This document shows, piece by piece, positions 4,089 to 38,352 of a stretch of DNA of 41,099 nucleotides. The notes beneath the pieces were generated by a model, which saw only the letters and a list, made by a program, of their open reading frames with translations, made no database searches and was not told where the DNA came from. This DNA is from a virus. The stretch lies in the IMG/VR virus record IMGVR_UViG_3300029258_001816, positions 1-41,099 of that record. One strand, written 5' to 3'. The translations under genes were made by a program, and so were the position numbers. Positions within the stretch are counted from its first letter, which is position 1. Each line of letters begins with the position of its first letter.

Positions 4089-4458
4089 ACACGACTTCGC
4101 TGAGCTCCGCAACAACCTGGGCAACATCGACGACGTGTGGGGAAGTGAAGTGGAGGAGCTGCTCCGGCAACGGGACTTCCTCTTCCGGGCTCTACACGTC
4201 GAGATGGGGACCCCTGGTTCAGCTCCCCCCGGATGGGCGTGGCAGGAATCTGCGGGCTACTGGTTGTACGTCGGCCCGAGCACAGCGACGATCCGGCCCG
4301 TGGTGATTCGGCGCGCTCCGGGAGTCTGGGCTCTGTGCCAGAACGCACAGCAGACCGGGGGCCAGCTTTTGTTCCCGACGGCCCTCGAAGCCATGCTCGC
4401 GGAGCCCCCGTGGGACGCCATCGAAGACGGTGAAACGCAAGAGATTACGCTGCACTGA
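4072..4458 (+). CDS. Hypothetical protein (128 aa, TTG start)
   Basis: A 128-aa soluble acidic protein. The likely start is TTG at 4072 behind GAGGTG, which gives an N-terminus MFPFCEHD. The ORF has no in-frame ATG near its beginning. It ends 12 nt before the polymerase gene, suggesting cotranscription. No known domain is visible. Confidence 0.6.
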   Translation: MFPFCEHDFAELRNNLGNIDDVWGSEVEELLRQRDFLFRALHVEMGTPGSAPPGWAWQESAGYWLYVGPSTATIRPVVIRRAPGVWALCQNAQQTGGQLLFPTALEAMLAEPPWDAIEDGETQEITLH

Positions 4459-4470
4459 AGGTGCTTCCTG

Positions 4471-7179
4471 ATGAGCTTGATGAACCCCGGGGAGTATGAT
4501 CCTCGCGCATGTGGAGCCGATTGTGACAACTGCCCGCTCCAAGGACAGGTGGTGGTGCCTCCTGAGATCCGCCTCCACGCGGAAGTCGTCGTCATTGGGG
4601 AAGCTCCGGGCGAGTCTGAGGAGAAGCAGCTCCGGCCTTTCGTGGGTCCGAGTGGCAGTGAAGTTGACCGTGCTCTCCGCGCTGGCGGCCTCCACCGAGG
4701 CAAAGCCCACTTCACCACAGCGCTGCTCTGCCGACCCCCTGAGAACGACCTGAAGAGGTTCCTCGCGGTCGAGAAGAAGAAGCACAAGCAGCTCGGCACG
4801 TCCATGAAGACGCCGATGGAGTGCTGTGCTCCCCGCCTGGAGCAGGAGATCGCCAACCACAAGCACTTCATCGCTCTCGGGAAGACGGCGGCGAACGCTC
4901 TGATGGGGGGCAACCAGAGCGTCATGGGGATTCGGGGCGCGGTCATCGACCTCGAAGCGACCCTGCGAACCCCGGAGCGGCGTGTGATGGTGACGCTGAG
5001 TCCGGGGCTGGTGCTCAAGCAGCAGCGGTGGGCGCACGTCTTTCGGAACGACGTGGCGAAGGCCATCCGCTGGTTCCGGGGCGAGGTAGGATGGGTCGAG
5101 CCTGATGTGACCTACAACCCTCCCCCTGCGGTGTTGAAGGCCTTCCTGAGTGACCCCTCTCAGATCTACACCTACGACATCGAGACGGACGGAATCGAGT
5201 GCCTCGACGCCAACATCCGTTGCCTGGCGATCGGCAACCCTGACCGAGTGATGGTGGTCGGCTTCCGCTCCAACGCGAGGCCCAAGGAGCAGAAGGGTCT
5301 GTTCCTCGACTACTACACGTCGCCTGCCGAAGAGATGGCTGTGACGGCTGTTCTCACCGAGTTCTTCGAGCGGGAAGACATCGTCAAGGCGGGCCACAAC
5401 TCGGGCTACTATGACAGGATCGTGTTGCAGGAGCGCATGGGCATCAACGTCAAGCCCAACATCGACACGATGATTCTTCACAGGAACGTAGAGTCTGAGC
5501 TGCCTCACGGCCTCGGCTACGTCGCCTCGCTCTACACGGAAGCCCCGGCGTGGAAGTCGGACCGTGAAGGCAACAAGCTGGCTCTGGGCGGGGAGTCCGA
5601 CCGAGATCTCGCGCAGTACTGCGCTCGGGATGTGGCCATCACAGCACGGGTGCTGGAGCCTTTGGTGGCGCAAGTGGCCATGCGGCAGCAGGAGTCTGTC
5701 TACCGGATGGACATGAAGATCCAAGAGATCTGCGCGGTGATGCACACGACCGGAATGTACGTCGATCAGGAGGCTCGTCACAAGAAGGAGCTGGAGCTGC
5801 TCCAGACGCGCCACAACCTGCTGGCGCAGATCCGATCGGGAGTGGGCCTCAACAGCTTCAACCCAGTGAGCGTCTACCAGTTGAGGGACCTGCTGTTCAC
5901 TGACTGGGGCATCAGCACCGAGTTCATCGACGAGAAGGACCGCTACACGGGGTCGGGGGACCTCTCGACAGGTGACCTCATCCTGCGGAGCCTCCTGACA
6001 CAGGGCGGCATTCCCGAGTGGCAGCGCAACATCATCAAGTTGATCCGGCGCTACCGCAAGTGCCTCAAGGTGCTCGGCACCTACGTCGTCAAGCTGCGCC
6101 CCTCGAACATGGGGGCTGACCTCGGGTGGGACGACGACGAGGACTGGATCGACAAGGAGACCCGCAAGAAGTACGGGGAGATCAAGCGCGGCATCGTCAA
6201 CCCCGCCACGGGGAGGATGTACCCTGGCTACAACGCTCACGTCGCGGTCACGGGGCGTCTGTCCAGCTCCAAGCCCATCAACGCCCAGAACTTCCCGAAG
6301 GCTCTCCGGGCGATGGTGGTGCCTCAGCCTGGCAACGTCTTTGTCGGGGCTGACATGGACCAGCTTGAGCTGCGGATCGCAGCCGCTCGTTGGGGCGTGG
6401 AGCTGTATCTTCGCGCGTTCGAGGAGGGCAAGGACCCGCACTCGATGACAGCCTTCGCGGTGTTCGGGGAGAAGTTCTGCGAAGCAGCCGGTGTTGACCC
6501 GGCTCTCTTCTCGCGGCCCGGCATTCTCGTGGGAGATGCCTACGTCAACGGCAAGTTCGAGGGTGGCGGGGACGCCAAGTCGATGCGGGACCTCTCGAAA
6601 GCCGTCCAGTACGCCAGTCAGTACATGGCCAAGGTCGAGACGGTCCACAAGCTCATCCAGAAGACGGAGCTGCCCGCAGTAGACCCGGTCACGCGCAAGC
6701 CGCTGGGAGACGGCACGACGGACCTCCCCTACGCCAAGATGCGTCTCAAGAAGGTCCGCAAGATGCGGGACAACTGGCTGAAAGGAGCCCCTGAGTTCGA
6801 GCGCGGGTGGGAGGCTGAGATCGGCACCTTCCGCGACAAGGGCTTCCTCACGGAGGACGTGACCGGGCGGAGGCGCGACTTCCTCGACGGTGAGGCCCCG
6901 AACGAGATCGTCAACTTCCCGATCCAGGGGAGCGCTGCCGGGCTCATGAACAAAGCACTGATCGACCTGTACGAGGAGATCCCCCTCCACAAGTGGGGAC
7001 CCGGCACAGGCATCATCAACCAATGCCACGACGCCATTGTCGTGGAGTGCCCCGAGTCCGAGGCCAAGAGGGTCGCGGGGCTCCTGGAGGAATGCCTGAA
7101 CCAGACGGACCCGGGGCTGCCGGGTGTCACGTTCACGGCGACCGCAGGGATCGGAACAAACTGGAAGCAAGTCGGCTGA
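4471..7179 (+). CDS. Uracil-DNA glycosylase-DNA polymerase I fusion
   Basis: A 902-aa replicative A-family polymerase with a family-4-type UDG domain at the N-terminus. The UDG part has Cys14/18/21, GEAPGESE (43-50), PFVGPSG (56-62), CRPP (87-90) and CC (118-119), consistent with a 4Fe-4S UDG. The 3'-5' exonuclease shows Exo I (Asp236, Glu238), Exo II (HNSGYYD, 309-315) and Exo III (Tyr383...Asp387). Polymerase motif A is DMDQLELR with Asp628, motif B has Arg706 and Lys710, and motif C is QCHD (851-854). Catalytic residues appear intact, so proofreading synthesis is expected. UDG-PolA fusions are known in phages, including SPO1-type. The N-terminal domain may recognise uracil during replication. 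AAGGTG lies before the ATG. Confidence 0.95.
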   Translation: MSLMNPGEYDPRACGADCDNCPLQGQVVVPPEIRLHAEVVVIGEAPGESEEKQLRPFVGPSGSEVDRALRAGGLHRGKAHFTTALLCRPPENDLKRFLAVEKKKHKQLGTSMKTPMECCAPRLEQEIANHKHFIALGKTAANALMGGNQSVMGIRGAVIDLEATLRTPERRVMVTLSPGLVLKQQRWAHVFRNDVAKAIRWFRGEVGWVEPDVTYNPPPAVLKAFLSDPSQIYTYDIETDGIECLDANIRCLAIGNPDRVMVVGFRSNARPKEQKGLFLDYYTSPAEEMAVTAVLTEFFEREDIVKAGHNSGYYDRIVLQERMGINVKPNIDTMILHRNVESELPHGLGYVASLYTEAPAWKSDREGNKLALGGESDRDLAQYCARDVAITARVLEPLVAQVAMRQQESVYRMDMKIQEICAVMHTTGMYVDQEARHKKELELLQTRHNLLAQIRSGVGLNSFNPVSVYQLRDLLFTDWGISTEFIDEKDRYTGSGDLSTGDLILRSLLTQGGIPEWQRNIIKLIRRYRKCLKVLGTYVVKLRPSNMGADLGWDDDEDWIDKETRKKYGEIKRGIVNPATGRMYPGYNAHVAVTGRLSSSKPINAQNFPKALRAMVVPQPGNVFVGADMDQLELRIAAARWGVELYLRAFEEGKDPHSMTAFAVFGEKFCEAAGVDPALFSRPGILVGDAYVNGKFEGGGDAKSMRDLSKAVQYASQYMAKVETVHKLIQKTELPAVDPVTRKPLGDGTTDLPYAKMRLKKVRKMRDNWLKGAPEFERGWEAEIGTFRDKGFLTEDVTGRRRDFLDGEAPNEIVNFPIQGSAAGLMNKALIDLYEEIPLHKWGPGTGIINQCHDAIVVECPESEAKRVAGLLEECLNQTDPGLPGVTFTATAGIGTNWKQVG

Positions 7180-31348: not shown

Positions 31349-31921
31349 TCAGTAGTACGCCGATTCGACGTAGATGACCTGGTTGGAGTTCCAGTCGTCC
31401 GGGTCCTTTCGGAAGCGCAGCTCCAATCCCCAGAAGCGTACCGGAGTCCCTTCTCCCAGCGGAGCAAAAGTCACGATGACTCGATCTGGCTGGTCGGTGC
31501 CCAGCATGAAGTCAGCCGTGATGTCGGACGCAGCAGTCACCCGCTCCACAGAGCTGAAGCCGTTCCGGACGTCACCGTACGCGATGGCCGCCGACTCCAG
31601 AGACTCCACGCGGAGCCCCGTCGTGGTATCTGGGTCACTCAAGACAAGGTTGCTGATCTGGATGTAGAGTCGCGCGGAGCGGCTCCAGATGGGGACACCG
31701 GACTTGGGCGAGCCCCCTGCACTCCGGAGATCGGGGCGCAGGTTGAAGATGGGCGTAGACCACTGGGCCAGGTACGAACCGTCTTCTTGGAGTACCCACT
31801 GCAACCGAACCTTGGTGCTCTCGTAGTACGCCACAGGCATCCCGGATGCTGCGGGCATCGGGAGCGTCGTCTGCGGGTTCGGGAAGAGCGCCCTGTTGGA
31901 CGGCTGCGAGGGGTTGCTCAT
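31349..31921 (-). CDS. Virion-type protein (190 aa)
   Basis: A 190-aa beta-rich protein beginning MSNPSQPSNRALFPNP, with two early NP pairs. Long strands (ARLYIQISNLVL, DRVIVTFAPLG, VRFWGLELRF) suggest a jelly-roll or other beta sandwich. The start overlaps the preceding stop by one base (TGATG), so it is cotranslated with the 187-aa gene, a common layout for capsid protein pairs. It is a candidate capsid or penton-like protein, by inference. Confidence 0.6.
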   Translation of the reverse strand: MSNPSQPSNRALFPNPQTTLPMPAASGMPVAYYESTKVRLQWVLQEDGSYLAQWSTPIFNLRPDLRSAGGSPKSGVPIWSRSARLYIQISNLVLSDPDTTTGLRVESLESAAIAYGDVRNGFSSVERVTAASDITADFMLGTDQPDRVIVTFAPLGEGTPVRFWGLELRFRKDPDDWNSNQVIYVESAYY

Positions 31922-32484
31922 CAGTAGCGGCCCGGCGAGCTGAAGTTGCGGGGACCGCGCATCTCAAGGCAGACCAGCGTGATGTCAATGCGGAGGTCGG
32001 CGATCAGCGGGGTGAGGCCGAGCTGAACGGACGCGCCCTGGTCGATGTTGAAGCCGTGGCCGCCGATCTCACCGGGGTTCTCCATCGTCCCCACGACGGT
32101 CTCAGCGAGGCGGGCTGCGGTGTGCAGCTTGTCGCCTGTCGAGTACTCCATCCGGAACAGGTAGGAGAGGTTCATGTTGATCGTGGACAGCGCGCCAACA
32201 GCCGCGCCAAGGGCCGCCGTGTTGACCGCTGAGCCGTTGATCGCCACGAGGCGGCACGGGATGTCGAACTGCACGAAGCGGGTCGACTCGGAGTTCACCG
32301 TGTAGTCCGCGTCCGTGCTCAGCAGCGTCGCGCCGTAGTAGCGGACCTGGTAGCCCACCGACGGGTTGGTGCTGTACCATGGGGCGGTGGGGAAGAACGG
32401 GAAGCGGACGAACGGCTGCTCACCCTCACCGCCCATCTGGGCCGAGGAGGGCATCGCGATGTTTGCGGAACGCTGCTGGGTCAT
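31921..32484 (-). CDS. Virion-type protein, capsid candidate (187 aa)
   Basis: A 187-aa beta-rich protein beginning MTQQRSANIAMPSS. Segments such as FVRFPFFPTAPWYS, VQFDIPCRLVAING and IDITLVCLEM read as sandwich strands. The gene has a strong extended -10 (32521-32529) and an upstream terminator, which isolate it as the head of a transcript, as expected for an abundant virion protein. The open frame extends to 32556 but that includes the promoter; ATG 32484 is chosen. No named family is recognised. Confidence 0.62.
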   Translation of the reverse strand: MTQQRSANIAMPSSAQMGGEGEQPFVRFPFFPTAPWYSTNPSVGYQVRYYGATLLSTDADYTVNSESTRFVQFDIPCRLVAINGSAVNTAALGAAVGALSTINMNLSYLFRMEYSTGDKLHTAARLAETVVGTMENPGEIGGHGFNIDQGASVQLGLTPLIADLRIDITLVCLEMRGPRNFSSPGRY

Positions 32485-32520
32485 TTGACACGGCCCTGTA
32501 AAAGAGAAGAGGCAGGAAGC

Positions 32521-32529
32521 ATCGTACCA
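32521..32529 (-). promoter_or_regulatory. Extended -10 late promoter (TGGTACGAT)
   Basis: Read on the - strand, TGG plus TACGAT, about 37 nt before ATG 32484. It belongs to the same motif class as the + strand late promoters. Confidence 0.5.
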
Positions 32530-32560
32530 GACAGGTAGCACGAGCCTCAGAAACAAGTAA

Positions 32561-32634: not shown

Positions 32635-32982
32635 TCAGGTAGGCGCGACGACCACGGTGAGCGACTGGCCGATGGCCGAGGTGAGGCGCAGGACGGTGTC
32701 GTTGAGGGTAGCGGCCGCCCCGGCACAGGTCACGATGATCTTGTCCTCGAAGACCACGCTGGGGTCAGTGGCGGGAAGAGTGGCTTTGGCGTCACCTACA
32801 GCCGTTGCGGGGAGAGCGTCATTCGTGCCGTTGCTGACCGCAATGGTGGAGTTGGTGTTCCCAGTGGTGGTCACGCTGGAGAGGTGCCAGCTACCGTTGG
32901 GGAGGGTGATGGTGGCCGAGTTGCCCGTGCCGATCTGGTTGGTGAGGTCGATCGTGAACGTCGGGGAGAAGGTAGCAGCCAT
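32635..32982 (-). CDS. Small beta-rich virion-type protein (115 aa)
   Basis: A 115-aa Thr/Ala-rich protein starting MAATFSPTFTIDLTNQIGTG and ending SLTVVVAPT. The plan matches the 119-aa protein at 33449 (short start, IDIT or IDLT, N/GQTATIT, a glycine-containing middle, TVVV end), pointing to paralogy. A near-perfect GGAGGT site lies 5 nt before the ATG and a terminator follows, so high expression is expected. It is a decoration or minor capsid candidate. Confidence 0.63.
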   Translation of the reverse strand: MAATFSPTFTIDLTNQIGTGNSATITLPNGSWHLSSVTTTGNTNSTIAVSNGTNDALPATAVGDAKATLPATDPSVVFEDKIIVTCAGAAATLNDTVLRLTSAIGQSLTVVVAPT

Positions 32983-33116
32983 TTGGACCTCCTAAGGTCG
33001 TTGGCGGTGAAGTGAGAAACACAGAGGGAAGGGTGAAGAGGCCTCTGCTGCGCTCACGCAACCGGAGCCTAAGTGAGCGACAGCATCAGCCCAAGAACTT
33101 CGGGTCAGCGCGAGTG

Positions 33117-33449
33117 CTACACGACCTCAACTCTGACAGGTCGCGCCTTGGCGTCCACGGCGCGGCAGAGCAGTTGGCAGCGGCGCACGGGAGCCCCGGT
33201 CACCTCGATCTCGATGACGGCGGTCGCAGAGAACGTCGAAGCAGCAGGAGAAATCTCCGCGCCCTCAGGCCCCACGGAGGCGGCGCTCACGGTCCCGTTG
33301 AAGACCCGGACCGCGCAGCCCGGCTCTCCCTCGACGAGCACGCTCATCAGCTCGAACGCCTGGCCGATGTCGGTCACGCGCAGCCGCTTGCCGCCCTCGA
33401 CGGCCGCCTTCAGGTCTACGACGAAGACGTTCGAGTAGCGGCCGAGCAT
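33117..33449 (-). CDS. Small beta-rich virion-type protein (110 aa)
   Basis: A 110-aa protein beginning MLGRYSNVFVVDLK. It shares the pattern AFELMSVLVEGEPGCAVRV with AFELVHVAVTGSAGCVATV of the gene just upstream, so the two look like diverged duplicates. The start overlaps the upstream stop (TGATG). A beta-sandwich structural role is likely. Confidence 0.63.
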   Translation of the reverse strand: MLGRYSNVFVVDLKAAVEGGKRLRVTDIGQAFELMSVLVEGEPGCAVRVFNGTVSAASVGPEGAEISPAASTFSATAVIEIEVTGAPVRRCQLLCRAVDAKARPVRVEVV

Positions 33450-33808
33450 CACGCCACGACGACCGTGAGGACGTCAGCGTAGGCGTCGGGGTAGCGGGTG
33501 AACAGCGTCACGCGGGTCGCGTTCGCGTCAGCTACCTCGATGGTGAGCGCGTCTGCCGGAGTGAAGCTGGCGTTGACGTTGGTGATCGAGCACGAGTTGG
33601 TGGGATCGCCCCCACCCGGGAAGTGGTAGGTCGCGACAGCAGCGATGTTGCCGTTCTTCTTGACCGTCGCCACGCACCCGGCGGAACCGGTCACGGCCAC
33701 ATGCACCAACTCGAACGCGTCGAGAACGCTGGTGATCGTAGCGGTCTGCCCCGCGTTGATGGCAGAGGTGATGTCGATGATCCCACAAGGGCTGGCGCGG
33801 TTTGCCAT
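33449..33808 (-). CDS. Small beta-rich virion-type protein (119 aa)
   Basis: A 119-aa protein starting MANRASPCGIIDITSAINAG and ending ADVLTVVVA. The centre AFELVHVAVTGSAGCVATV is shared with the 110-aa neighbour, and the overall plan with the 115-aa protein. It heads a two-gene transcript, and the 87-bp gap upstream probably holds the promoter (a TAGAGT box is visible on the - strand). A capsid-surface role is plausible. Confidence 0.63.
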   Translation of the reverse strand: MANRASPCGIIDITSAINAGQTATITSVLDAFELVHVAVTGSAGCVATVKKNGNIAAVATYHFPGGGDPTNSCSITNVNASFTPADALTIEVADANATRVTLFTRYPDAYADVLTVVVA

Positions 33809-33895
33809 CAGAAGCTCCGGTTGATGAGGCGACTCTATCGCACAGGAGACAAGCAGTCAGAGTTGAAAGGGCACCTGCTGTGCCACAGACTTCGA

Positions 33896-35686
33896 TCAGA
33901 GGGTCGTCTTGTAGTAGTAGAACTCCTGGTGGCTCAGAGTCTCTCCCAGAGCGGCGTTGACCTCATCGCGGACCTTGCCTTCCCGGATGAGCTGCCGGAT
34001 CTCCTCCTTGCGAATGCGGGAGCGCTTCGGCTTCTGTGCCTTCGTGCCACCTGTCTTGCCTGTGACCCCCTTGCGGGTCCTGCCGTGCGCGATCCCCAAG
34101 GCCGTATCTACCGAGCAGTCGAGGATTTCAGCCATCGCTCGGAGAGACAGCTCTCCCTCGTCGTACAGATCCGAGCAAGTCTTGACGAGAGCCTCGTCGT
34201 TCGTGCGGCCACCGTACCAGCGCCACTTGGGTTCTGAGGCGGGGGCGAGTTCGACAGGAACGCTCTCCTGACGGTGCTTGACCACGTCGAGCATGTTCTC
34301 GCTACGAGTACCCCAAGCCAGATTCTCGGCCCGATTGTCTCGTTTGTCCCCGTTCAGGTGCCGCACATCGGTGTGTTCAGGCGACGGGGGGTCGCCGTGG
34401 AAGGCTTGGCAGACGAGCCGATGGACGAGCCGCGTCGAGGACTTCTCTCCGACCCGTCTTGTTATACCTACCGTTCGGTAACCTGTCGCCATCACGGTTC
34501 CGTCCAGCGTCGTGCCTCGCCAGGACCTCGTGTAGCTCTTGACTTCTCCGGTGTTCGACACCGTGTACCGCCCGCTGGTGCCCGAGACGCTGACTGTGAC
34601 CACCCCAGTGTTTTTCTTGAACACGAGCACCGGCTCGGTCCGAGGGCCCTGACCGTTCTTCCGCCCGAAGTGGTCCACCCCGACATGCAGCTTGTCCTCC
34701 TCAACGTACTCCAGCCCCGCCTGCCGGGCGCACCGGAGGACGGCCTCACGCCGAGCGTCGTCCACGTTGAGGACAAAGTGACCCCCTGGCTTGAGGACAT
34801 CGAAGCCTCGCTGGATGGTGGGCTGGAGGTACCGCTCGACCCACTCGGACTCCACGGGATAGTCGCGCCAGCACTGACCGGGCTCGTCGAAGTACCGCTC
34901 CTTATCGAAGTAGGGTGGAGAGGTGAACACCATGTCCACAGGGCAGGTCGGCCCTTCGACTTCGGACCCGTTCTCGATGATCTCCCCCCGGCCGGGGAGA
35001 AGCGTCCGCAGCTCTGCCGCAGTCAGCCTCGCGGGCTCGTTCGCGATGTAGCGGCCCTCAGGGTAGACCGCGTAGAAGCCCAGCATGCGGCCTCCGAACC
35101 CACCTGACGGATCCCACACGACGGGCCGAGGGTTGTCTCCGATCCACTCGCGGTAGATGGCGGCTGCGGGGACCGGCTTGAACAGGGAGGGCACCTTGCG
35201 CCCCGAGATGAGCCCCCGAAACAGGGCCTCTCGGGTGAAGTCCCACACCTCATCGTGCTTGTTCAGTCCGATCCTGTACGCGATGACCTGCTTCAACTTC
35301 TCCCAGTCTTGGCACGTCTCCAGCGCGCCGCCTTGCGTCTTCCAGTAGGCCGTGAAGTGCGCGCGCATCAGCTTCACTCCGACCCTGGACAATGACGAGA
35401 GCCGATCGTCACTTCGCGCCAAGACGGCTCCATTTCGGGCCTGGGCCAAGACCTCCTCCGAAGTCCCCGCGAAGCCGGGGTTGCGCCAGCCCCACCGTTC
35501 GATGTCCCGCTGGGCCAGATCGGTCAGCTCCGGAAGCACCTGCGCGACAAACGGCCCCAGATCCCACTTCCGAAGCTCCCGCGACTCCTCGGCGCTCAGG
35601 AGCACCTCATCTGTCCAGCACCACTCGGGGTCGGCGTAGAAGTTCCGCAGGCGTCGCCACACGGCATCCAACAGCTTCTCAGCCAT
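33896..35686 (-). CDS. DNA methyltransferase fused to an HNH endonuclease
   Basis: A 596-aa fusion. The first 190 residues are helical. A SAM-dependent methyltransferase follows: DPSGGFGGRM (about 191-200, motif I), TSPPYF (about 253-258, motif IV) and FDVLKPGGHFVLN. SPPY-type enzymes methylate exocyclic amino groups of DNA bases. At about 370-390 a NUMOD4-like YTVSNTGEVKSY begins, then an HNH_3-like domain (LVHRLVCQAF, DVRHLNGDKRDNRAENLAWG, about 415-460) typical of phage homing endonucleases. An HTH-like segment (LSLRAMAEILDCSVDTALG) and a basic C-terminus complete it. It could be a homing endonuclease fused in frame or a one-chain modification/cleavage protein. Confidence 0.88.
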   Translation of the reverse strand: MAEKLLDAVWRRLRNFYADPEWCWTDEVLLSAEESRELRKWDLGPFVAQVLPELTDLAQRDIERWGWRNPGFAGTSEEVLAQARNGAVLARSDDRLSSLSRVGVKLMRAHFTAYWKTQGGALETCQDWEKLKQVIAYRIGLNKHDEVWDFTREALFRGLISGRKVPSLFKPVPAAAIYREWIGDNPRPVVWDPSGGFGGRMLGFYAVYPEGRYIANEPARLTAAELRTLLPGRGEIIENGSEVEGPTCPVDMVFTSPPYFDKERYFDEPGQCWRDYPVESEWVERYLQPTIQRGFDVLKPGGHFVLNVDDARREAVLRCARQAGLEYVEEDKLHVGVDHFGRKNGQGPRTEPVLVFKKNTGVVTVSVSGTSGRYTVSNTGEVKSYTRSWRGTTLDGTVMATGYRTVGITRRVGEKSSTRLVHRLVCQAFHGDPPSPEHTDVRHLNGDKRDNRAENLAWGTRSENMLDVVKHRQESVPVELAPASEPKWRWYGGRTNDEALVKTCSDLYDEGELSLRAMAEILDCSVDTALGIAHGRTRKGVTGKTGGTKAQKPKRSRIRKEEIRQLIREGKVRDEVNAALGETLSHQEFYYYKTTL

Positions 35687-35710
35687 TCTCTTCTCCTGTG
35701 AGATGACGTA

Positions 35711-35739
35711 CTTGTATCACTCAGCGAGAAGCTGCACAA
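35711..35739 (-). promoter_or_regulatory. Promoter of the methyltransferase fusion
   Basis: On the - strand: TTGTGC, a 17-nt spacer and TGA-TACAAG, followed by a CAGGAG site before the ATG at 35686. It is a weaker relative of the extended -10 class. Confidence 0.45.
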
Positions 35740-35771
35740 CTCCGTACTACAAGACCCCCAAATGCGAAGAA

Positions 35772-35793
35772 CCCCCGACCTTTCGGTCGAGGG
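35772..35793. terminator. Hairpin terminator after the 225-aa virion gene
   Basis: CCCCCGACC (35772-35780), loop TTTC, GGTCGAGGG (35785-35793). TTCTTCG follows on the - strand and CTCTTGTCC on the + strand. It is nearly identical to 32561-32583. Confidence 0.7.
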
Positions 35794-35830
35794 CTCTTGT
35801 CCAAAGCGCCGCTTGAAGCGGCATTCTGGA

Positions 35831-36508
35831 TCAGCCGATCTCGATGACCGACTTGTAGTAGCCGAGAAGCACGACGCGAACGGCGATGCCGACGTTCGTC
35901 GGCAGAGCGGCGGTGCGCGAGCCGAAGTTCAGCTCGACCGAGAAGGTCGAGGAACCGGGCAGGGCGACCGGGTTCTTCCGGTACATCCAGATGCCGCCGT
36001 TGCCGTTGTTCAGCGAGCCGACCTGGTTGCCGGCGGAGTCAGCGACGGCACCGAAGATACCGCCGCCCGCACCAGCGAGCATCAGGGGGCAGATGAACAC
36101 CTTCGTCTGGGTGAAGTCCCAGGCGAGAATGCCGTTGTTGACGACGTTTGCGAGGCCGGAAGCGGCAGCGCTGGCGTCGGTGATGGGCTCACCGAAGTCG
36201 TCGTCGGTGGGGTCCCAGTGGATGACCTGACCGGCGACGCCGAAAACGTCGTAGGCCTGACCCGACGGGATGCGCCCCGCCTCCTTCAGGTTGGTCTCGC
36301 TCTGGGTGAGGCCGTTCGGGAAGCCCTGGCCCTGACCACCGAGCTGAGTCACGAACAGGCGGTTCACGCTGTTCTGGAGGTTCTGGGCCGCAACGGCCGA
36401 GCCGAAGGCGTGCGTCGAGTAGAGGGTGATCTCACCGAAGCGGAAGAGGTTCTTCGGGAGGGACTGCTGAACGTTCGAGGGGAAGCCCGAACCCTGGCTG
36501 ATCTGCAT
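35831..36508 (-). CDS. Major virion protein candidate (225 aa)
   Basis: A 225-aa protein, beta-rich at both ends and Gly/Ala-rich in the centre, beginning MQISQGSGFPSNVQQ and ending VGIAVRVVLLGYYKSVIEIG. It stands alone between an extended -10 promoter (36602-36610) and a strong terminator (35772-35793), with GGAG 6 nt before ATG 36508. That layout fits a single, highly expressed structural protein. The codons are strongly G/C-ending, as in other abundant proteins. I recognise no named capsid family, so it is a candidate only. Confidence 0.6.
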   Translation of the reverse strand: MQISQGSGFPSNVQQSLPKNLFRFGEITLYSTHAFGSAVAAQNLQNSVNRLFVTQLGGQGQGFPNGLTQSETNLKEAGRIPSGQAYDVFGVAGQVIHWDPTDDDFGEPITDASAAASGLANVVNNGILAWDFTQTKVFICPLMLAGAGGGIFGAVADSAGNQVGSLNNGNGGIWMYRKNPVALPGSSTFSVELNFGSRTAALPTNVGIAVRVVLLGYYKSVIEIG

Positions 36509-36601
36509 TGTGTACTCCAATGCGAAGGGATTGAGATGATGAGGGCGGATGCCCGGTAGATGGAAGAGGTTGCCACTGGCGGCTGGCCCCTTGACAGGCC
36601 C

Positions 36602-36610
36602 AGCCTACCA
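36602..36610 (-). promoter_or_regulatory. Extended -10 late promoter (TGGTAGGCT)
   Basis: Read on the - strand, TGG plus TAGGCT, just after the stop of the 579-aa gene and about 94 nt before ATG 36508. It is identical to the motif at 13619-13627. Confidence 0.5.
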
Positions 36611-36612
36611 GA

Positions 36613-38352
36613 TCACATCGCAGCCTGGCCAGCGAAAAGCATTCCAGCGTAGCTGGAGTCTGCTCCGTTCGCCGTCCCAGCCATGTTGGCCGTGTGGCCG
36701 GAGACGAACTCCGGGCTCTGGACAGGGAGCTGGGTCTTCAGCTCACGCTTCATCGTGATGATGGCTGCGCGGCGCATCTTCTTGATGAGGGCGAGGCGCT
36801 GCCTGGGGGGGAGGGCGGCGAGGCGCTGGAACTTCCTGAAGCCGATCAGCTTGATCAGCCAGCCCCAGCGGTGCCCACGACGACCCGCAAGGTGGGACGG
36901 AGCACCCGGAGATCCACCCATCGCGTTCAGGCGATGGGGAGGATGCCCGAAGCGGTTCATCCACTCTTCCGGCCCGGCGCAAGCTGCCTGGCCCTCTGCC
37001 ACATCGAGATCCGCCCCGGCGTGCTGAGCGTCGGCGAGCTCTGCACTTCCGTATGCCGAGGCGGCATCATCAAAAGGGGAGGAGAAGCCCCCGATCTCGT
37101 AGGCCATGCCGTCGCCGTAGTTGTCCATGGCGATCCCACCGAAGACACCCTCGTTGTCCAGGGCGATCCCACCGAAGACACCCTCGTTGTCCAGGGCGAT
37201 CCCGCCGAAGACACCGGCCATGTCGTCGCTGATCTCCTCGTCGAGCTCGTCCTCGTTCAGGTCGAGATCGCCCTCGCCGAGCATCCCGGTCATCTCAGCG
37301 ACCTGGAGCGCACCACCGGCAGCGGCCACACCGCCAGCCAGCAGGCCGAGGTACAGGCCAGCCTGACCGCCGACCGCAGCGGCAGCGCCGCCGAGGATCG
37401 CGCCGGCCAGCAGACCGGTGGAGGCGTAGGCGTACTCCTGGAGGTACTCACCCGCGACGGGGATGCGGGCGTAGACGTTCTCGCTGACCCAGGGCACGGC
37501 CTTGGCGTGGACGTAGGCACCGGCAGCGGCACCGACGGTCGCCACACCGGCCTTCATCGCGAGGCCACGGTAGTCCGGGTTGGTCAGGGCGAGACCGCCG
37601 AAGACGCGGGGGTTGCTGACCATGGTCAGCGCGCCCTCACGGCCCTTCACGATGTCCCAGGCCTCCTTGAGGCTGACACCGCGCTCCTGCTTGATCCGCA
37701 TCGCCATGGCGGCCATGGAGTTGCCGCCGCGACCGCTGCTCTTGCGCTTCGGAGCGGACTTCCAGGCGGCCTTCTGCTCGGCCCACGCCTGCTGGTGGGT
37801 GACGCCCGCTGCGCGGCGCTGGACGCGGCGCTTGTTGAACTCGCGAACGGCTGCGACGTCCACGGTGCTGTACGGCTGGCGGCCGAATGCGTTGGCCTTG
37901 TAGCGGTCGTTCTTCTTCCGCTTCAGGTAGTAGCGCCCGGCCTTGCTGCCCAGAGCCCGCTTGGCGTAGCCTACGGGCTTCGCGAAGCCCTGCTTGGAGG
38001 GCTTGCCGTAGCCGGCCTTCTGAAGGCCCATGGCGATGGCACGCTTGGCGTTGGCGTACTTCTGCTTCGTGGCCTTGCTCTGGGGGCCGGCAGCGATGGC
38101 GGCCGCGACCCGAGCACCCTTCTGGCCCTTCGGGGAGTAGATGTCGTACGCCTGCTTGATCTGCTTGGCGGACTTGCCGGAAGTGATCATGCCGACGACG
38201 TCGCCAATCGAGGCGCCTTTCTTGACGACGGCGCGAGCGGCAGCGTTGATGCGCCGACGGTCGTTCGGGTTGGTGAGTGCGAGACCCATGTCTTCGCTCC
38301 TTCTGGGGTTTGATACGAGAATCGCCCCAGACAGGGGCATGAAGTTGCTCAT
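36613..38352 (-). CDS. Large basic/membrane virion protein with tandem repeats (579 aa)
   Basis: The N-terminal 235 residues are very basic (VSNPRRSED, GRYYLKRKKNDRY) and contain two GVTHQQAW/GVSLKEAW helix motifs. A hydrophobic Gly/Ala segment (about 290-345) with two or three possible TM helices follows, then an acidic stretch (LDLNEDELDEEISDD). Next come tandem GVFGGIALDNE repeats (about 379-407) and a helical basic C-terminus (QRLALIKKMRRAAIITMK). GGAGAGG precedes ATG 38352. The design suggests a protein that spans or lines the virion membrane and touches DNA with its basic half. No family is recognised. Confidence 0.65.
   Translation of the reverse strand: MSNFMPLSGAILVSNPRRSEDMGLALTNPNDRRRINAAARAVVKKGASIGDVVGMITSGKSAKQIKQAYDIYSPKGQKGARVAAAIAAGPQSKATKQKYANAKRAIAMGLQKAGYGKPSKQGFAKPVGYAKRALGSKAGRYYLKRKKNDRYKANAFGRQPYSTVDVAAVREFNKRRVQRRAAGVTHQQAWAEQKAAWKSAPKRKSSGRGGNSMAAMAMRIKQERGVSLKEAWDIVKGREGALTMVSNPRVFGGLALTNPDYRGLAMKAGVATVGAAAGAYVHAKAVPWVSENVYARIPVAGEYLQEYAYASTGLLAGAILGGAAAAVGGQAGLYLGLLAGGVAAAGGALQVAEMTGMLGEGDLDLNEDELDEEISDDMAGVFGGIALDNEGVFGGIALDNEGVFGGIAMDNYGDGMAYEIGGFSSPFDDAASAYGSAELADAQHAGADLDVAEGQAACAGPEEWMNRFGHPPHRLNAMGGSPGAPSHLAGRRGHRWGWLIKLIGFRKFQRLAALPPRQRLALIKKMRRAAIITMKRELKTQLPVQSPEFVSGHTANMAGTANGADSSYAGMLFAGQAAM
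37131..37215 (-). repeat. Tandem 33-bp coding repeat (2.6 copies)
   Basis: Two identical 33-bp units (37131-37163, 37164-37196) and a partial third with one base change encode GVFGGIALDNE on the - strand. Adjacent copies without spacers rule out CRISPR. Confidence 0.9.

Follow-up and report, generated by a model that had tools for sequence, protein, structure and literature searches.

The 41,099-nucleotide viral contig analysed here in its whole length (the window) encodes, on its minus strand, a single protein in which a putative DNA methyltransferase is followed by a NUMOD4 segment, an HNH nuclease and two helix-turn-helix (HTH) domains. The gene is almost certainly a real C-terminal, in-frame fusion of two once-adjacent genes, and its methyltransferase part belongs to a clade in which every member is associated with a nuclease-type module. 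Whether the protein represents a homing-type nuclease kept together with a methyltransferase that marks self DNA, comparable to a small Type IIC enzyme, is in our judgement about evenly balanced.

Anatomy of the fusion gene

The open reading frame comprises 596 codons (596 aa) in one stop-free frame. Pfam, PHROG, the PDB matches and the structural model agree that a single chain carries methyltransferase, NUMOD4, HNH and HTH segments, as an earlier sequence-only reading, which gave no strand, had claimed. The features below were compared, where indicated, with L334, a related locus in which the two parts are separate genes.

33896..35686, minus strand: methyltransferase-HNH fusion gene (open frame; Pfam; PHROG)
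34592..35686, minus strand: methyltransferase part, residues 1-365; homology to the L334 methyltransferase stops at 358 (alignments)
35183..35608, minus strand: N-terminal helical region of the methyltransferase, residues ~27-168, conserved in the nuclease-linked clade (alignment A8, model)
35075..35119, minus strand: methyltransferase motif I, VWDPSGGFGGRMLGF, residues 190-204 (alignments A1 and A8)
34907..34924, minus strand: methyltransferase motif IV, TSPPYF, residues 255-260 (alignments)
34589..34612, minus strand: fusion junction, residues 359-366, NTGVVTVS (direct reading; compared with L334 TAAGGAGGTACTATG)
34463..34588, minus strand: NUMOD4, residues 367-408 (Pfam; model confidence low here)
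34292..34432, minus strand: HNH_3 nuclease, residues 419-465 (Pfam, PDB match, alignment)
34088..34195, minus strand: first helix-turn-helix, residues 498-533 (model; aligned in L334)
33899..34024, minus strand: second helix-turn-helix, residues 555-596 (model, pLDDT ~90-95 from residue 561)
35692..35697, minus strand: Shine-Dalgarno AGGAGA ahead of the fusion-gene ATG (direct reading)
35772..35793, minus strand: hairpin CCCTCGACCGAAAGGTCGGGGG with TTCTT after it, perhaps a terminator separating the fusion gene from its upstream neighbour (direct reading)
35831..36520, minus strand: upstream neighbour, 229 aa, 50% identity in L334 (comparison with L334)
31921..32556, minus strand: downstream neighbour, 211 aa, 44% identity to the protein after the L334 HNH gene (comparison with L334)

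Three Pfam families were matched, all above their curated cut-offs: N6_N4_Mtase (residues 250-365, 8.7e-8), NUMOD4 (367-408, 5.6e-8) and HNH_3 (419-465, 4.1e-15). Besides the Pfam domain, the methyltransferase part possesses a SAM-binding motif I, with D192, G196, F197 and R200 invariant in alignments A1 and A8, and an (S/N/D)PP(Y/F) motif IV, the SPPY-type motif already noticed from the letters. Its N-terminal helical region is a possible recognition or interaction domain. The core resembles many class I methyltransferases in Foldseek (best E 1.5e-8), including Bud23, TrmN, Trm11 and PrmC; since several of these modify RNA or proteins, it is the sequence annotation that points to DNA as the methyl acceptor, which we consider very probable. 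Third-codon-position GC is 84% in the methyltransferase and 77% in the rest, a weak difference (p 0.04).

In the nuclease part, PHROG_59 (HNH endonuclease) matches residues 369-559 (5.5e-36), a span that takes in the first HTH, and the best PDB match, I-HmuI (1u3e), aligns to residues 367-466 (E 9e-8). Residues H443, N451 and N455 are invariant in alignment A3, and Arg442 is the counterpart of the metal-binding Asp of I-HmuI, which we take to be Asp74; aligned relatives have Arg, Asn or Ala there. The AlphaFold2 model (mean pLDDT 78.6; Rossmann methyltransferase core at about 95-98) contains an HNH site of beta-beta-alpha form together with two HTH-like bundles of helices, so that the HTH predicted earlier is present but is one of two; in alignment A5, which was used for structure, 14 residues are misplaced per HNH row. 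Both the methyltransferase and the nuclease are predicted, with reasonable confidence, to be catalytically active.

The hairpin upstream of the gene was not reported by the consensus scan. An Rfam scan of positions 33000-37000 revealed no group I intron family, and the fusion gene is intergenic; an origin as a group I intron-encoded homing endonuclease was therefore excluded, the two sub-threshold Rfam matches being ascribed to chance.

Origin of the fusion from two adjacent genes

Relatives of the methyltransferase from phages, viral contigs and bacterial genomes align over residues ~27-358, and those with nothing attached stop at EPVLVFKK, a few residues before NUMOD4 begins, while the HNH part has the size and domain order of free-standing phage HNH enzymes. 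Alignment with methyltransferases lacking the HNH, as proposed in the earlier reading, thus shows that the nuclease extends the gene; insertion within the methyltransferase was ruled out because the nuclease-less relatives finish at the junction.

The two-gene counterpart L334 lies on a 41.4 kb viral contig, metagenomic like the window, and was brought up by the scan with the closest methyltransferase clade. It carries a methyltransferase gene at 4174-5499 (up to 441 aa, with a possible short ribbon-helix-helix N-terminus from a sub-threshold match), followed by a separate NUMOD4-HNH gene at 5509-6729 (406 aa). The two genes share one frame and only TAAGGAGGTACTATG lies between them, so that the Shine-Dalgarno sequence overlaps the stop codon. 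A tblastn search with the window protein continues across both genes; the methyltransferases are 37% identical (341 columns) and the HNH parts 45% (173 columns, including the linker and first HTH). The stop, Shine-Dalgarno sequence and ATG of the L334 spacer are all gone from the window, whose junction contains neither a stop nor an ATG, only a GTG codon lacking a clear Shine-Dalgarno sequence, and little is left of the N-terminal leader that the L334 HNH has; a single-base error is therefore an unlikely source of the fusion. The methyltransferase tree (97/95) and the HNH tree (100/100) both place the window and L334 as sisters, which indicates that the pair was inherited together, and, judged from these comparisons, the fusion is the derived state and the two adjacent genes of L334 the ancestral one. 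Two genes with a stop between the domains, named in the sequence-only reading as the finding in close homologues that would speak against a fusion, do occur in L334 and describe the ancestral state; the window fusion stands, since the signals separating the L334 genes are absent from it.

Among the matches listed, the window is the one example of the fused C-terminal HNH form. No match spanning most of the protein was found in 50,697 phage records and 72,556 plasmids, and in none of the 80 HNH loci fetched was an HNH fused to a methyltransferase of this family. Long frames in two HNH relatives (L240 and L216) were rejected as fusions, as they look like unstopped non-coding stretches.

Five neighbours are kept around the pair, in transcription order proteins of 210, 595 and 229 aa before it and of 211 and 190 aa after it, and in both viruses the pair stands directly after the 229/233-aa gene. 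The 229-aa protein is suspected to be a capsid protein; its single-sequence fold model has a pLDDT of 30, it had no PDB or phage-record match, and a direct scan retrieved no relatives, its counterpart being reached only via L334. No empty site for the pair was found in the virus group of the window, L334 having the pair at the same place.

Three small paralogues (30-33% identity) lie just downstream of the fusion gene (32635-32982, 33117-33452 and 33449-33808, minus strand) and were not detected at the matching place in L334. The pattern CTACTACAAG(A/T)C is found where the fusion gene ends (33906-33917, minus strand), in inverted orientation just upstream of that gene (35744-35755, plus strand) and where the upstream gene ends (35850-35861, minus strand); it has four matches with at most one mismatch in the window against 0.05 expected, for a pattern picked after the fact. 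Its interpretation as an insertion scar was rejected, L334 having only the copy that ends the upstream gene.

Elsewhere in the window, positions 4471-7179 (plus strand) encode a 902-aa protein composed of a uracil-DNA glycosylase domain (residues 31-182) followed by a 3'-5' exonuclease and a family A DNA polymerase, with near full-length similarity in one phage record only, 'Virus Rctr197k'. Many genes in the region 10570-41094 (minus strand) look structural but have no significant match in Pfam, PHROG or the phage records. The window and L334 seem to belong to an undescribed group of viruses with contigs of ~41 kb.

A clade of nuclease-linked methyltransferases

Methyltransferase relatives were placed in a first tree of 97 rows, built by a quick method, and in a careful tree of 39 rows; the clade counts are drawn from viral scans and represent the best loci among the matches listed. 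In the first tree all nuclease-linked methyltransferases fell within one 17-row set (99 SH-aLRT), and none of the 80 methyltransferases outside it had a fused nuclease. The careful tree delimits a clade of 20 methyltransferases (support 100/99), every one of which is linked to a nuclease-type module: 14 through an N-terminal module, four through a nearby, unfused nuclease-like gene (L159, L160, L333 and L342), L334 through the adjacent HNH gene, and the window through its fused HNH. PHROGs identify the nearby gene of L164, the twin of L160, as a homing endonuclease and that of L159 as an endonuclease. The N-terminal extensions examined comprise zinc fingers, NUMOD3 or DUF7487 segments and a Vsr-like nuclease; an ExDGxxxH core could be aligned across 13 sequences, Vsr Pfam matches were obtained in L006, L008, L018, L027 and L049, at or below the Pfam cut-off, and L032 and L049 were assigned from DUF7487 and Vsr matches only. 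A second sub-clade has TSIPY or TSTPY in place of TSPPY as its motif IV; L008, L009, L010, L018, L022, L027 and L069 are N-terminal nuclease-methyltransferase fusions of this sub-clade with SIPY or STPY.

No Vsr-like nuclease was found in the window. The presence of an HNH in the window and L334, within an otherwise mostly Vsr-like clade, suggests that the nuclease was exchanged within the clade, the modules being at opposite ends, in a direction that is not firmly rooted. Because linkage to a nuclease, usually Vsr-like, extends to the entire clade, the methyltransferase looks unlike an arbitrary invaded host gene, and the pairing of modification and cleavage gains support. The varied forms of linkage (N-terminal fusion, adjacent gene, adjacent HNH, C-terminal HNH fusion) are what would be expected if the partnership itself were selected. 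Two readings had been offered from the letters alone. That of a homing endonuclease fused to its host gene has the order of events right, as the separate L334 genes show, but the methyltransferase does not seem to be just any host gene; that of a single-chain modification and cleavage enzyme is strengthened as far as the pairing goes, its role as a destroyer of DNA at many sites being a rival considered below.

Location of most clade members downstream of a capsid gene

Fifteen of 16 nuclease-linked methyltransferases lie 3' of a gene for a T4-like major head protein (PHROG_138), 12 of them within ~0.25 kb and three (L003, L160 and L159) farther away with another nuclease-like gene between; among other methyltransferases with enough upstream sequence the count was 0 of 69. 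As the nuclease-linked set is one clade, these are not independent points, and the pattern may be partly vertical inheritance. Related capsid loci that had 600 or more bases of downstream sequence numbered 75, and a rough, pattern-based sorting of them yielded 14 GIY-YIG nucleases, two methyltransferase-nucleases, two other nuclease candidates and one HNH, with a neck gene next or near in 18 and 38 unclassified. Nuclease hotspot loci 3' of the T4-like gp23-type capsid gene include L254, L256, L257, L259, L265, L271, L275, L281-L283, L288, L289, L297, L306 and, with an HNH, L325. The sister Vsr-like fusions have related capsid loci from which the cassette is absent. Occupation of the same spot by GIY-YIG and HNH nucleases in other phages is what homing genes would be expected to show, and the site acts as a homing hotspot would, with nucleases of different folds taking each other's place; an exchange of nucleases could plausibly have happened there.

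Proposed function and alternative explanations

Homing nucleases and restriction-modification systems are both regarded as selfish DNA cutters, and homing genes are usually held to avoid being cut by their own nuclease because the target is altered or interrupted. For the fusion protein we propose that the nuclease, aimed by NUMOD4 and the HTHs, would nick or cut the DNA of relatives without the cassette, after which repair would copy the cassette in or the competitor would lose the cut region. The methyltransferase would mark the virus's own DNA, which the nuclease would spare, so that self-protection, as the linkage suggests, would come from marking and be independent of a changed target sequence. 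Free-standing phage homing nucleases help themselves to spread and shut out the corresponding region of relatives, a process known as intronless homing (PMC2993671). That methylation and cleavage are functionally coupled may be put at roughly an even chance; given such coupling, homing rather than general restriction is somewhat the likelier main effect. More tentatively, the clade could constitute methylation-immunised homing elements, a methyltransferase lineage that has swapped both its homing-type nuclease, Vsr-like or HNH, and the manner of linkage, by fusion or as a neighbour, and that shields the virus's own copy of a conserved target gene by methylating it rather than by altering or interrupting the site, bridging homing endonucleases and restriction-modification. 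The parts are known and the combination is apparently undescribed; no description of a methyltransferase-homing nuclease fusion was found in the open-licence literature.

The main rival is hitch-hiking, in which the methyltransferase is an anti-restriction or regulatory enzyme of the usual phage kind that homing nucleases keep inserting next to or taking with them, and the window lost the intervening stop codon without functional coupling. This possibility, which has a real though minor share of the probability, accords with a NUMOD4/HNH unit typical of free-standing phage homing nucleases and unfused to this methyltransferase family in all 80 HNH loci, and a nuclease hotspot 3' of the capsid gene would gather nucleases and passengers alike. 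It accounts less readily for a whole clade having nuclease-type modules of two unrelated types in several arrangements, and for a pair still together in the window and L334 despite the divergence of both halves. Rather unlikely is a phage-borne single-chain restriction-modification enzyme that mainly destroys host or competitor DNA at many sites: its Type IIC-like architecture (PMC4081073), the jumbo-phage fusions of Mom with a REase-fold nuclease that are read as modification plus attack (PMC7824862), and a weak MADS Mad2 match (7.8e-8), alongside PADLOC calls of 'homing endonuclease' and Type II methyltransferase, are set against an HNH/NUMOD4 family of I-HmuI-type site-specific homing enzymes and sister enzymes at one conserved homing-type location.

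Two further explanations carry very little weight. An assembly or sequencing artefact in a virus that has two genes might be suspected from a single contig and from the two genes of L334, but two genes would require a stop, a Shine-Dalgarno sequence and a start, none of which the window has, the HNH leader is mostly missing, and the neighbouring frames have, close to the junction, no stop with an ATG after it, so that one base error would be insufficient. Slighter still is the chance that the methyltransferase has RNA or protein as its substrate and that its link to a nuclease means something else; the Foldseek matches named above would fit, whereas Pfam, PHROG and PADLOC assign DNA N6/N4 or Type II methyltransferases and the domain is joined to DNA-binding and DNA-cleaving domains.

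If the proposed homing function with protection by methylation is right, a methyltransferase clade moving with homing-type nucleases would represent a second escape route, protection by marking, and would be a natural source of small bifunctional enzymes that recognise long sites. The existence of two-gene (L334) and fused (window) forms makes the coupling testable with either half removed.

Comparison with known systems

The nuclease part shares with I-HmuI and the free-standing phage HNH enzymes with NUMOD4 (PHROG_59) the NUMOD4-HNH_3-HTH order, the H/N/N residues and a size of ~230 aa, but it sits behind a methyltransferase, as no fetched HNH relative does. The weak MADS Mad2 profile match covers residues 121-319, and the window gene is viral and not in a defence island. 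Most Type IIC enzymes consist of an N-terminal PD-(D/E)XK nuclease and a gamma-class methyltransferase. Type IIC (IIG) enzymes, like the window protein, combine methyltransferase and endonuclease in one chain (PMC4081073); likened from sequence, the window nuclease differs in being a C-terminal homing-type HNH_3 with NUMOD4, and the N-terminal Vsr-like fusions of the clade are nearer the usual Type IIC order. The latter nucleases resemble EDxHD/Vsr-like homing endonucleases of the I-Bth0305I type (PMC3943268), whereas the window has an HNH at the other end. Jumbo-phage Mom-REase fusions likewise join a DNA-modifying enzyme and a nuclease in one phage protein, read as protect-and-attack (PMC7824862), although the modification there is momylation and the nuclease fold differs from that of the window. 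Given the Type IIC and Mom-REase precedents, modification with cleavage in one chain is not new in kind.
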